Program-made: the position numbers and the translations under genes
Source of the DNA: Sphingobacteriales bacterium
GTDB lineage: Bacteria; Bacteroidota; Bacteroidia; Sphingobacteriales; Sphingobacteriaceae
Assembly (NCBI GenBank): GCA_025353765.1
Contig: JANXOD010000015.1
Span: forward strand, 124,001 to 188,000
DNA length: 64,000 nucleotides
Reading direction: 5' to 3'
Notes under the pieces: model-generated
Told to the model about the DNA's origin: nothing
Databases searched by the model: none
What the model saw: only the letters and a program-made list of their open reading frames with translations
In this document: positions 30,728 through 35,294 of the stretch, one piece after another
Layout of the letters: each line of letters begins with the position of its first letter
How positions within the stretch are numbered: the stretch's first letter is position 1

Positions 30728-30820
30728 AGGGGGAGAAGGAATAAATTTAGCTGCAGTTTAAGCTTTGTTAAGTACAATTTAATAAAAATTCTTACCTTTC
30801 CAATAACCAAAAATTGAAAT

Positions 30821-31171
30821 ATGAGAAAATTATTACTCCTTTTATTCCTCTTGGGAATAATAGTAAGCTTACAGTTTTGCTCCTCATCAAAAAAATTAAC
30901 ATCGGCAAAACAACCTGCTAAAATTACTTACGCAGCCAATATACAACCTCTCATCATCAACTATTGCTCTCCCTGTCATATCCCTCCAAGAGGCTTTAAA
31001 AAACCCTTAGATACGTATGATGCCGCTAAAACATCTGTTGATGAAATGATAGCCCGTATGCAAAAGAGCCCTGATGAAAGGGGATTTATGCCATTCAAAC
31101 ATGCCAAGCTCTCCGATTCTACTATCATGGTATTTGTAAATTGGAAAAACAGTGGGCTGTTAGAGAAATAG
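30821..31171 (+). CDS. Small lipoprotein with CxxCH heme-binding motif
   Basis: The signal sequence RKLLLLLFLLGIIVSLQFCSS gives a lipobox cysteine near residue 20. A single c-type heme site, CSPCH, lies in IINYCSPCHIPPRGFKK, and a methionine-rich stretch later (KSPDERGFMPF) may give the distal ligand. Size (116) fits a monoheme domain of the kind fused to or paired with membrane oxidases. No redox partner gene is adjacent. Electron donor and acceptor are unknown. Confidence 0.75.
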   Translation: MRKLLLLLFLLGIIVSLQFCSSSKKLTSAKQPAKITYAANIQPLIINYCSPCHIPPRGFKKPLDTYDAAKTSVDEMIARMQKSPDERGFMPFKHAKLSDSTIMVFVNWKNSGLLEK

Positions 31172-31263
31172 CAAGTACATACATAGTATGCTCATAGTTT
31201 TAAAACTACGAACAGCTAACTTATATTAAAAAAGAAATTAAGACAAAATATACTCTCATACGT

Positions 31264-31659
31264 TTATGAAAGCAACTCTTTATCTGCTTTATTTTCTAAT
31301 ATCTTAATCTCTGTTTTCTCCTTTTTAATATCCTGGCGAATGAGACCATATAAGTTCATATAGATATTAGACACCCATACCAATGCAAAGCCTGCTATTA
31401 TAAATCCTCTCCAATCGTTTATTAACAGCTTGTAATCAGTTAAAAAAAGAAATAAAACGGTTACATAATGGCTAAAACAGTACTCACAGGTAAAAAGATA
31501 AAAAAATTTTCTTTTAAATACCGTATTGCCATGATGACTTCGCTGAACACAATATTCTCTGGGCTCATGAAATATCTCTTCATGAGTAACCGTCCACGAA
31601 ATACAGGCAATGGGTAGTGCTAATAAAAAAAGCCAAAGAATTTGCAGGTATATTTCCAT
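31264..31659 (-). CDS. Integral membrane protein with Cys/His cluster
   Basis: A 131-residue protein with about three membrane spans (residues 5-25, 50-75 and 85-110) and a charged C-terminal tail. A CEYCFSHY motif sits at the border of the second span and TVTHEEIFHEPREYC upstream. The arrangement resembles small DUF1360-like membrane proteins, but I am not certain. It is leftward and alone. The start at 31659 gives a hydrophobic N-terminus; the longer overlapping frame upstream is a different frame. Confidence 0.55.
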   Translation of the reverse strand: MEIYLQILWLFLLALPIACISWTVTHEEIFHEPREYCVQRSHHGNTVFKRKFFYLFTCEYCFSHYVTVLFLFLTDYKLLINDWRGFIIAGFALVWVSNIYMNLYGLIRQDIKKEKTEIKILENKADKELLS

Positions 31660-31719
31660 AAATAAAGTTAATGAAGAATTTTAAATAAACAGCTAATAAA
31701 GTATTCTTGTTTCTTTGCT

Positions 31720-31826
31720 GGTGCGGGTTTGTAACTCGTACCTTATTATTTCTTAAGTATAAACTATCTCTGCTTATTAAAAGTACAAAAATCATTTATA
31801 TGAGATACGAGCTGCAAGCTCCCACC
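31720..31826. repeat. Pair of REP-like palindromes in inverted orientation
   Basis: The 23-mer at 31720-31742 (GGTGCGGGTTTGTAACTCGTACC, shown here by its ends GGTGCGGGTT and AACTCGTACC) folds on itself. A related 23-mer at 31804-31826 (GATACGAGC ... CTCCCACC) is its imperfect reverse complement. About 60 AT-rich bases separate them. This is the layout of a BIME-like unit made by REP-associated transposases. No RAYT gene is visible here. Confidence 0.6.
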
Positions 31827-31851
31827 AGTGAGGGCTAGCTAGAGGAGGTTT

Positions 31852-32403
31852 TTATTTATTGTTTTCTTTAATAAGCTCTATTAAAAAAGGAAATTTATCA
31901 AATCCATCTCTATCAATAAAATGTTTTCCTTCCTTTAATAATATAAATTTTGCATGTAGTTTTTTTGCTAATATTTCAGAGTAACGGTATGGTATTATGT
32001 CATCATCTTCAGCAGAAATAACAATTCTATTTTTTATAGTTTTAATAAATTTAGAATAATCTATTTCTTTTTTCATGAATTCCGAAAGCACTTCGATGGG
32101 GGATTTTTCAACAAATCCAGAGACAAGAAACATGGATTCAATATTCTTATTTGCTAAATAATTTAAGATTGTTACACAACCTAAACTATGCCCAATAAAA
32201 ATTGATTTTTCACCGAGTTGTTTAATGTTACTTTCTAAGTGGTTTATCCATTCTTCCGCATTTGGTTCTTGTGAATTTGGCATATCAAAAACATGGACTT
32301 TAATATTTTCAGATTCCAAATTATTTTTCAAATCAGGGAACCAGTTAGAACTAGAATTAGCTGTATATCCGTGAATTACATAGATGTTGTAAATTTGTTC
32401 CAT
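31852..32403 (-). CDS. RBBP9/YdeN family alpha/beta hydrolase
   Basis: A compact serine hydrolase of 183 residues. The oxyanion-hole segment is VIHGYTANSSSNW, the nucleophile elbow GHSLG with Ser at about residue 72, and the late His lies in LKEGKHFIDRDG. The catalytic Asp is likely in SAEDDDIIPY. The family is small, broadly distributed and without a settled substrate. It is flanked by intergenic repeats and shows no operon partner. Confidence 0.85.
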   Translation of the reverse strand: MEQIYNIYVIHGYTANSSSNWFPDLKNNLESENIKVHVFDMPNSQEPNAEEWINHLESNIKQLGEKSIFIGHSLGCVTILNYLANKNIESMFLVSGFVEKSPIEVLSEFMKKEIDYSKFIKTIKNRIVISAEDDDIIPYRYSEILAKKLHAKFILLKEGKHFIDRDGFDKFPFLIELIKENNK

Positions 32404-32811
32404 TTTATTATATCTTAATCAATTTCATTGGTATTTATCATTCAATTTAAATTTTCTTTTCAAAAAAATAAAAAGATCTTTGATTAAGATATTGATCTTT
32501 TCCATAATCATAACTGTTTTTATACTTCATAAAATGATGTTAACTACTTACCATTTTGGCAGGTAATTTCGCAAGTGTGTCTAATTCTTAAGCAGGCATT
32601 CCCGATATCATTTATTATATAATTCATGAGGCTATAATATGTTTTTATTTTTATTGCTTTTTTGTTTTTAGCAATTTATCAGCTATATCTTACCCTTCTA
32701 CAAACAAACTCCACAAAAAAGCCCCAACCTGTTTGAACAGGGTGAGGCCTAATTAACACACCTAACAAAAAATAGTTGCCTGACTCAAAGTCGTGCTACT
32801 ATTAAAAGATT
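32404..32811. other. Gene-poor gap before the Fn3-like gene
   Basis: About 400 AT-rich bases. The upstream promoter for the hydrolase gene should lie in the left part. The right part holds the terminator at 32714-32748. I see no protein-coding frame with plausible composition and no further structured repeat. Confidence 0.5.
32714..32748 (-). terminator. Terminator after the Fn3-like gene
   Basis: Read on the minus strand, a stem of GCC..ACCCTGTT and AACAGGTTGGGGC closes a short loop, followed by a run of T (the AAAAAAA at 32714-32720 on the plus strand). It ends transcription of the leftward gene that stops at 32812. Confidence 0.7.
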
Positions 32812-33423
32812 TTACAAAACAAAGCTGCTTACTTCATCCGAATACACGCGGGTAGGGTTGGAGCCAATGCCAACCACTCTGAAAATATATTCCTGTCCGC
32901 TTAATAGGTTACTGATTACAAGTGAAGATTGTGAATCAAGTATATTTATCCATCGGTCATCAGTAGCATTAGCGTTGAGTTTATATTCAAACAAATACGT
33001 TTTTGCACCATGAATTTTATCAATGCTTAACTTAACACTTCCTTTAGCGGGTGCAGGTATTACTTTAAAATTAGCAGGTTTAGGTAATACACCTACGGGG
33101 CTTGGCTTATTTCTTAATTTAAAGCCAGAGCTTTCGGCTATCACTTCATTGCCATCGGCAACCGTTTCTACATAAAGTCCCAGGCGCTTTAAGGTATCTT
33201 CCAGTTTTTTACGTTTTTCATTTTTTAGAAGTGTCGCATTGGCTCCGTTCCCCATGTTATCCAAGGCGGCGCTATACTCATCTGTAGTATCTTTTAACTC
33301 GGTTAGTGTAGGAACCGGGCTTGGAAAATGAGCGTTATTAGTCATACTAAATTTAATTTGTCCCGCCTCTACCACAAGAGACTCATCGGAATGGTTTTTA
33401 AAACCAATAAGGATTACTGCCAT
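32812..33423 (-). CDS. Fibronectin type III-like protein
   Basis: The frame is open from 33468, but the ATG at 33423 gives a start MAVILIGFKNHSDESLV that looks natural, so this start was chosen (203 residues). The N-terminal half is helical with KNEKRKKLEDTLKRLGLYVE. The C-terminal part (about 115-203) has fibronectin III features, including PKPANFKVIPAP, FEYKLN, ISNLLSGQEYIFRVVG and a final strand VSSFVL. No signal peptide is visible, which is unusual for Fn3 proteins. Role unknown; similar helical-plus-Fn3 proteins occur in Bacteroidota. Confidence 0.65.
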   Translation of the reverse strand: MAVILIGFKNHSDESLVVEAGQIKFSMTNNAHFPSPVPTLTELKDTTDEYSAALDNMGNGANATLLKNEKRKKLEDTLKRLGLYVETVADGNEVIAESSGFKLRNKPSPVGVLPKPANFKVIPAPAKGSVKLSIDKIHGAKTYLFEYKLNANATDDRWINILDSQSSLVISNLLSGQEYIFRVVGIGSNPTRVYSDEVSSFVL

Positions 33424-33599
33424 TTTTAATAGATGTTTTAAAAATAAATTTATTTTTATTTGTAACAAATATATTACATTTAGTTTTAATATTTCATAAT
33501 AAGAATTAAATATTTTTTAAAATAAACTTTTATTTGATCAAATGCTTTGAATAAGATGAAGCGAAACGATTTAAAAAGATGTTTTAAGCGGTTTTAAAA

Positions 33600-33839
33600 A
33601 TGGAGTACATACGCAAGGAAGAAGCCGTCAGCAAAATAAAACCTGCTTTTATAGCGCTATAAGCCATTATAGCTATACATTTAACCATTTCCACGACAAG
33701 GAAAACCTCTGAAACGACAAGGAAAACGTTTAAAACGACAAGGAAAATGTTTAAAACGACAAGGAAAGCTTCTGAAACGACAAAGAAAGTCTTTGAAACG
33801 ACAAGGAAAACTGTTGAAATGACAAGGAAAGAAGATTAG
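33600..33839 (+). pseudogene. Interrupted small ORF ending in 21-bp (heptapeptide) repeats
   Basis: From ATG at 33600, 20 codons (MEYIRKEEAVSKIKPAFIAL) run to a TAA at 33660. The same frame then stays open without a start codon to TAG at 33837. This second part encodes a short hydrophobic stretch (AIIAIHLTI) and then six full TTRKxxx heptads plus one partial. If the TAA were sense, this would be one 79-residue protein with a possible membrane segment and a basic repetitive tail. I call it a possible decayed gene with low confidence, because the repeats may instead be a DNA- or RNA-level element. Confidence 0.35.
33693..33836. repeat. 21-bp tandem repeat array
   Basis: Six complete 21-bp units start at 33693, 33714, 33735, 33756, 33777 and 33798, with a seventh partial unit at 33819-33836. 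Each has a conserved 12-base core ACGACAAGGAAA followed by nine variable bases. There are no indels. The core varies in only two units (AGG to AAG; ACG to ATG). Period 21 equals two helical turns or seven codons. Confidence 0.85.
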
Positions 33840-33959
33840 ATTTTTAAATCAGCCGGCAAAAGGGGGATGAACCATTAAAAAATAGCCCGACAAAATATTT
33901 TCTGTCGGACTAAATAAACTTAAAAAGAATAATAAATGAAAAACGGTACTAGTTCTGGT

Positions 33960-35294
33960 TTACAATTCAGGCAGTATTTTTTCCATTATTTCCAATCCTG
34001 CATCAATATGTTTTGGTTCCATAATAAGAGCCGGGCGGAAACGAATTGTTTGACTGCCACATCCTAAAAACATCACATTGTGTTCCATGCCTTTAGTAAT
34101 AAATTTATCTCTTGTTTCTTTATTAGGAAAATCAAAGGCAGTTAACAATCCGCGACCGCGAACATTAGAAACCTGCTCATGCTTTTCAGAGATTTTAGTT
34201 AAACGTTCCTGAAGGTAATTTCCTGTGGTTGTTGCATTTTCTAACAGATTATCTTCTTCTATAATTTCCAGGGCTTTAGAAGAACGAACCATATCTACCA
34301 AACTTCCACCCCATGTAGAATTAATACGTGAAGGAACATTGAATACATTGGTTTCAATTTCATCTACTTTTTTGCCTGCTAAAATACCGCAAACCTGCAT
34401 CTTTTTGCCAAAAGCCAAGATATCCGGACGAGCGTTTTCGCCGAAATGCTGGTGAGCCCAGAACTTTCCGGTTAAACCAACTCCAGTTTGTACTTCATCA
34501 TATATTAAGAAACACTCATTTTCATCAGCTAATTTCCTCAATTGTTCTAAAAATTCCTGGCGCACGTGGTTATCTCCACCTTCAGATTGTATAGGCTCAA
34601 TAATGATGGCACAGATATCATCCTTATTATCAGCAAAAGCTTGTTTAATTTGAGTTATAGATAATTCTTCGCGGCGTTTCAGGTCTTCATAACCTGCATC
34701 CGTAAAGGGGAATTTAATAAAAGGAATAGACACACGGGGCCAATCAAACTTGGCGAACCATTTGGTTTTATCAGGTACCGTATTGGTTAAGCTTAAGGTA
34801 TATCCCGAGCGGCCATGAAAGGCTTTTTCGAAATGCAATACTTTAAACCCACGTTCTTTGGTATATCCTTTTTGAAAGTTTTTCTGAACTTTCCAGTCCA
34901 TGGCCACTTTTAAAGCGTTCTCAATTGCTAATGATCCACCGGAAATAAAGAATGCATGCGGCAAATAATCAGGAATACCCACACGTGAGAATGTTTCTAC
35001 AAACTGGGCGTATTGTGTGGTGTATATATCAGAATTTGAAGGGTTAGTTAATGCAGCAAGCATCAGGTTCTTTTTAAACTCTTCATCATTCACCATTTTA
35101 GGATGATTATAACCTAGAGGGACGGAAGCAAAGCAGGTAAAAAAGTCTAATAAAGTGCGATTGTGTTTGGCATCATAAATATGCACACCCTGACTTTTTT
35201 CCATGTCGAAAGTTAAATCAAAACCATCTGCTAAAATGTGTTTGCTTAATGTTTCCTGAACTTGATTTGGCGAAATTGATAATTTATACATCAT
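33960..35294 (-). CDS. lat: L-lysine 6-transaminase
   Basis: A class III PLP aminotransferase that moves the epsilon-amino group of lysine to 2-oxoglutarate, giving 2-aminoadipate 6-semialdehyde in lysine degradation. The Schiff-base lysine lies in ILAFGKKMQVCG, PLP Asp in FLIYDEVQTGVG, and the N-terminal signature HILADGFDLTFDMEKSQGVHI sits as in known Lat proteins. GGSLAIENALKVAMDWK is the phosphate-side glycine region. Length (444) is usual. No adjacent semialdehyde dehydrogenase is seen. Neighbours do not form an obvious pathway. Confidence 0.92.
   Translation of the reverse strand: MMYKLSISPNQVQETLSKHILADGFDLTFDMEKSQGVHIYDAKHNRTLLDFFTCFASVPLGYNHPKMVNDEEFKKNLMLAALTNPSNSDIYTTQYAQFVETFSRVGIPDYLPHAFFISGGSLAIENALKVAMDWKVQKNFQKGYTKERGFKVLHFEKAFHGRSGYTLSLTNTVPDKTKWFAKFDWPRVSIPFIKFPFTDAGYEDLKRREELSITQIKQAFADNKDDICAIIIEPIQSEGGDNHVRQEFLEQLRKLADENECFLIYDEVQTGVGLTGKFWAHQHFGENARPDILAFGKKMQVCGILAGKKVDEIETNVFNVPSRINSTWGGSLVDMVRSSKALEIIEEDNLLENATTTGNYLQERLTKISEKHEQVSNVRGRGLLTAFDFPNKETRDKFITKGMEHNVMFLGCGSQTIRFRPALIMEPKHIDAGLEIMEKILPEL

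Follow-up and report, generated by a model that had tools for sequence, protein, structure and literature searches.

The window, which is the whole 64,000-nucleotide stretch of Sphingobacteriales DNA analysed here, carries a 21-bp tandem array, named C13, in the space between an aminotransferase gene and an Fn3-like gene. The features of this locus are as follows:

30728..33959, no strand: lineage-specific 3.2-kb stretch holding C13, between the convergent PIG-L deacetylase gene and lat
32812..33423, reverse strand: Fn3-like gene without a Pfam match, the downstream neighbour in gene direction
33600..33662, forward strand: ATG-led stretch of 20 codons ending in TAA at 33660-33662, in frame with the array; probably no gene, as coding support is absent
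33684..33692, forward strand: half-unit ACCATTTCC at the left edge, resembling the xxxATTTCC 9-mers of other arrays
33693..33830, forward strand: the array C13, six full 21-bp units and a seventh core (12 conserved and 9 variable bases)
33883..33912, reverse strand: terminator-like hairpin of the aminotransferase gene, 13 pairs followed by a T-run, with the array just past it
33960..35294, reverse strand: class-III aminotransferase gene lat, L-lysine 6-transaminase-like (Pfam Aminotran_3, E 2.9e-90), the upstream neighbour in gene direction

C13 contains seven copies of the core ACGACAAGGAAA, spaced at exactly 21 bp (core starts at 33693, 33714, 33735, 33756, 33777, 33798 and 33819). The core varies at two positions, through a G to A change in copy 5 and a C to T change in copy 7, and there are no indels. 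TRF reports a period of 21 with 6.6 copies and a score of 157, while a 63-bp reading of the same DNA scores 199. A pattern made of two cores gives 31 matches in the genome itself and none for the reversed control, which places C13 far above chance. The array is therefore real, and the seven cores and the TRF result confirm what the first-pass annotation had described: 21-bp tandem repeats with a conserved core, nine variable bases and no indel. We counted ACCATTTCC as the edge of the array because xxxATTTCC precedes the first core in three of the four arrays of this genome.

With respect to its neighbours, C13 lies 5' of the Fn3-like gene in the reverse orientation, i.e. antisense to the next gene. 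The 20-codon frame opening at ATG 33600 is present as previously annotated, in frame with the array, and it continues past the TAA at 33660 and across C13 to a TAG beyond the array. Orthologues of lat in 18 congeners are 82–88% identical, and in most congeners the end of the PIG-L gene is close behind lat, as opposed to the 3.2 kb that separates the two converging genes here. This stretch (30728-33959) holds four small genes in addition to C13, and most congeners do not have it.

Arrays in the source genome and in its relatives

Three further arrays, with the same period and a core identical to that of C13, were found in the source genome (2.83 Mb, 44 contigs):

C6a, C6 at 139 kb: separates a PNPOx-like gene from kynureninase
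C6b, C6 at 526 kb: separates a GNAT gene from aspartate kinase (lysC)
C20, C20 at 338 kb: separates an HMA-domain gene from a gene for a product with a signal-peptide-like start

These three arrays could not have been visible to the first-pass annotation. Together the four arrays comprise 39 units, 7–12 per array, with no indels. All are intergenic and between co-directional genes, and three are sense-oriented 5' of a gene. Tandem units of 10–100 bp at several loci, lying between genes and non-coding, are traits of a dispersed intergenic minisatellite, and the four arrays have these properties, with the proviso that the last unit of C20 may supply a start codon. Several of the variable 9-mers (ATGATTTCC, ACCTTTGAA, ACGTTTAAA and ATGATTGAA) recur across loci. 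For example, ATGATTTCC and ACCTTTGAA are common to C6b and C20, and ACGTTTAAA is common to C6b and C13. A duplicated 42-bp unit pair is present in C20, and the 63-bp period is the one that TRF scores highest in C13, C6a and C6b. Lone units elsewhere in the source genome are in no excess over the control pattern. The products encoded next to the arrays (aspartate kinase, kynureninase, aminotransferase and a protein without a Pfam match) have no common function. Directly adjoining the C6a array is a perfect 18-bp inverted repeat (TTTTGCTAATTTACATAG/CTATGTAAATTAGCAAAA, with a 3-bp loop; L009 5436-5474).

We searched 100 relatives, 399 family genomes and 395 phylum genomes for the two-core pattern, allowing two mismatches or fewer. 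Arrays turned up in the source genome only; all other matches were isolated ones, at about the rate of the reversed control. With three cores and at most three mismatches, no array came to light in 20 congeners, and a 42-position profile search of the 100 relatives found arrays in the source genome and none in the other 99. Twelve weak profile matches in one relative, G084, turned out on reading to be unrelated dispersed sequence. This genome has many near-identical dispersed copies of GGAACCTCTAATAATTCATTCGCATC... (L168, L169, L170, L172), perhaps insertion-element ends. The viral, phage and plasmid collections gave no match to the unit, and a phage or plasmid origin was rejected on that account. 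It had been held beforehand that the lack of a homologous array in any other genome would leave C13 as a chance expansion. The first half of that argument stands, as no other genome has one, but the second does not: there are four arrays in the same genome, and C13 therefore belongs to a dispersed family rather than being one chance expansion.

Comparison of the gene junctions indicates where these arrays arose. Orthologues of lat, aspartate kinase and kynureninase were compared with their flanks in up to 18 congeners, and TRF found no such array at these congener loci. The gap between GNAT and lysC is 307 bp in the source genome. Both genes were read in 17 congeners, 16 of which have a gap of -17 to 40 bp, and the two genes overlap by 17 bp in G015, G012 and G005, which are among the nearest by aspartate kinase identity. 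In the seventeenth, G014, the gap is 182 bp and is occupied by a different, heptamer-type repeat; it lies at the same junction as C6b (L105 1316-1500) and consists of 14/28-bp TGAGCTATCAGC units followed by CTCACAA-type heptamers. At C20, the HMA gene and the next gene are about 310 bp apart, versus 1 bp in G003 and G018, and most simply the start codon of the downstream gene is the ATG of the last repeat unit. The gap between the PNPOx-like gene and kynureninase, which holds C6a, is 526 bp versus 62–71 bp in two congeners. Two of the arrays, C6b and C20, thus occupy junctions where the congener genes overlap or nearly abut. Since the syntenic loci of the congeners carry no array, it can be deduced that the source lineage acquired, at every one of these loci, DNA that includes the array, and repeated loss in all the other lineages is less likely. 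Even the nearest congeners, with at most 88% amino-acid identity at lat, are too distant for the edges of the insertions to be placed.

Coding potential, RNA structure and protein binding

One potential role for such repeats is to encode a heptad-repeat peptide, either TTRKxxx or one on the reverse strand. A unit of 21 bp is seven codons in strict register, three frames (forward frame 0, encoding TTRKxxx, and two reverse frames) are open across all the arrays, and at C20 the frame enters the next gene to form a 333-codon ORF. However, an open frame is uninformative here, because it is automatic for a stop-free 21-bp unit. In the open forward frame 0, the units differ from the consensus 141 times, and five of these differences are synonymous. 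Two frames do have mainly synonymous core differences (reverse SLSFxxF and forward NDKEN), with stops in several units; these counts are descriptive, as the units are related and one change is counted several times. Coding was rejected in all six frames, since the open ones change almost only non-synonymously and those with synonymous changes are interrupted, so that no open frame has a synonymous bias. Moreover, the fusion at C20 would bury the signal-peptide-like start 59 residues inside the product, and the congener homologues begin at that start. We consider a coding role scarcely credible. The peptide that the first-pass annotation had read through the interrupted frame goes with it, as no relative has an array in which a sense codon at 33660 could be sought, and the frame is open automatically. 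The same annotation had favoured recent expansion or nucleotide-level constraint over protein conservation, and this agrees with an array that is non-coding and genome-specific and whose core has mutated less than its 9-mer.

Another possibility is that the arrays act as RNA elements in 5' leaders or operon spacers, where hairpins would act on the downstream gene through termination, stability or translation. The position of all four arrays between co-directional genes, with three of them sense and 5' of a gene, would suit such a role. C6b folds better than dinucleotide shuffles on both strands and C20 does so on the reverse strand (z -3.8 and -3.0, respectively, on the reverse strand). This can be traced to the 9-mer ATGATTTCC, in which both arrays are rich and which forms GGAAA-ATGA-TTTCC palindromes (GGAAA-NNNN-TTTCC). 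In C13, by contrast, z is about 0 on both strands against dinucleotide shuffles, and C6a is also not clearly structured. The distinct 9-mers pair with the cores no better than column-shuffled ones (8–13% of shuffles are as good), Rfam gave no match, and C13 is antisense to the next gene. A transcribed hairpin array was rejected as a general explanation, given that structure is confined to the two ATGATTTCC-rich arrays, and an RNA function for the family seems improbable.

Changes are unevenly distributed within the unit. In minimum spanning trees of the distinct variants, 15 changes fall on the 12 sites of the core and 31 on the 9 sites of the 9-mer (binomial p 0.0009), and the contrast persists in a tree of whole units (p 0.008). 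Per site, the core has mutated about three times less than the 9-mer. Of all the features, this alone is left unexplained by plain slippage, and it supports some constraint on the core or biased copying, the two not being told apart. A reading that makes use of it takes the arrays as sites for a putative DNA-binding protein, one per two helical turns and maintained by selection, with the 12-bp core as candidate recognition sequence and the 9-mer as spacer. The 39 units in exact 21-bp register without an indel, the identical core at four separate loci, and the lower mutation of the core even when distinct events are counted would all be expected of such sites; most core changes are C/T, at positions 2 and 5, or G/A, at position 8. 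However, slippage preserves the 21-bp register as well, lone sites are in no excess elsewhere in the genome, and the genes next to the arrays share no function. With no array in any of 20 congeners, the role of the protein would also be peculiar to the source genome. Maintenance by a binding protein is thus an unlikely explanation.

Origin of the family and comparison with known systems

The reading that we prefer, with a probability of roughly 0.6, is that the arrays are a dispersed family of intergenic minisatellites, young and specific to this genome, expanded in place and untranslated. The 21-bp unit, comprising the 12 conserved bases of ACGACAAGGAAA and nine variable ones, would have spread by copying at the DNA level, reaching four or more sites that separate co-directional genes. 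There the arrays may have been lengthened and shuffled by slippage or unequal recombination, which would maintain the 21-bp register and yield the 42- and 63-bp higher-order repeats. Any influence on the neighbouring genes would come from pulling coupled genes apart. Two observations speak against this reading: the core has mutated less than the 9-mer, and the flanks have no word of more than 10 bp that recurs from locus to locus and no common inverted ends, leader or tail.

The manner of spread could also be that of a non-autonomous mobile element of the MITE or REP type, with the array as cargo. Gain at tight gene junctions would be consistent with this. So would a 9-bp direct repeat, ACCATTTAA, that brackets C20 where the two genes formerly met and could be read as a target-site duplication; however, 12% of shuffled flanks contain a 9-bp match at some position, so that ACCATTTAA is not significant alone. 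No convincing target-site duplication was found at C13, C6a or C6b. MITE ends or common flanks were rejected, none being found across the four loci, which share no leader, tail or terminal inverted repeats. The genome does have a single Y1-type (REP-type) transposase gene, surrounded by REP-like palindromes (AACCTTTCCAAAAGTTT and relatives; L162 1293-1352, 1581-1607 and 1966-1998). The 21-bp unit does not resemble these palindromes and does not occur near the Y1 gene, for which reasons the transposase was rejected as mobiliser. A mobile element is therefore a very improbable source.

If the preferred reading of an untranslated, genome-specific family is correct, a minisatellite arose in one species of the genus and filled junctions that are tight or overlapping in its sister species. 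Such before-and-after loci could be used for studying the spread of naked tandem repeats in bacteria and the fate of coupled genes once they have been pulled apart.

Several described repeats resemble the arrays in part. REP/BIME palindromes with RAYT transposases (PMC2817692) are likewise dispersed, intergenic and built of short units, and the source genome has its one Y1-type gene. However, they are palindromic and reach a high copy number, whereas the present units are direct tandem repeats in four places, C13 has no clear palindromes, and the sequence flanking the Y1 gene is of other palindromes. The TAACTGA heptanucleotide repeats of Beggiatoaceae (PMC4679880) are intergenic direct repeats, and the heptamer-type array of G014 at the GNAT-lysC junction recalls them; the arrays studied here differ in period (21 rather than 7), in sequence and in number of loci (four versus 169).

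A Chitinophagaceae MAG, 338R_metabinner_42, has two families of 21-bp intergenic arrays. The first (L159 and L160) has units with AAGGAAA...TTTT on two contigs, and its array at L160 1909-2097 lies between mraY and murD. Its unit, ATGATAAGGAAAACGATTTTA, differs from that of the window in having inverted half-units, and as the arrays of both families were found through a pattern containing the window core, the likeness of the cores is partly a matter of how they were selected and no common origin is claimed. The second family consists of 21/42-bp arrays with near-perfect palindromes (ATCCTTCTTTTGAAAAGAAGGAT), also on two contigs (L157 2085-2287 and L158 1819-1998). The cores of a 21-bp array in a Verrucomicrobia MAG (L055 4253-4499) alternate with inverted ones, ATGACAAGGAAAGTATGTGCG and ATGCTCGTCTTCGCACGTGCG, and the likeness of a CTCAGAATGACA-type intergenic repeat in Lachnospiraceae (L049) is limited to the searched core. 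It could be imagined that 21-bp (two-turn) intergenic arrays form a recurrent class, with a sequence of its own in each genome, that enters the stop/start junctions of coupled genes, a dedicated putative protein protecting the core and spreading the units, but we regard this as quite improbable.

The nearest case in the literature, which otherwise offered general papers only, is BrickBuilt of Porphyromonas gingivalis (PMC4596501), a minisatellite-bearing MITE with 23-bp units that occurs in 19 intergenic copies, of which many carry leader and tail segments as well as IS5-like terminal inverted repeats. Our arrays cannot be counted as members, as their units are of 21 bp, their copies number four, and a leader, tail or inverted ends were not detected in flanks whose shared words do not exceed 10 bp. 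The family is ordinary in kind, and its points of interest are the gain at tight junctions and the contrast between core and spacer. BrickBuilt is confined to one species and a close relative, and it shares with our arrays the phylum Bacteroidota, a unit length near two helical turns, the division of the unit into conserved and variable halves, scattered positions between genes and a restricted distribution. On these likenesses, it is the closest described analogue.
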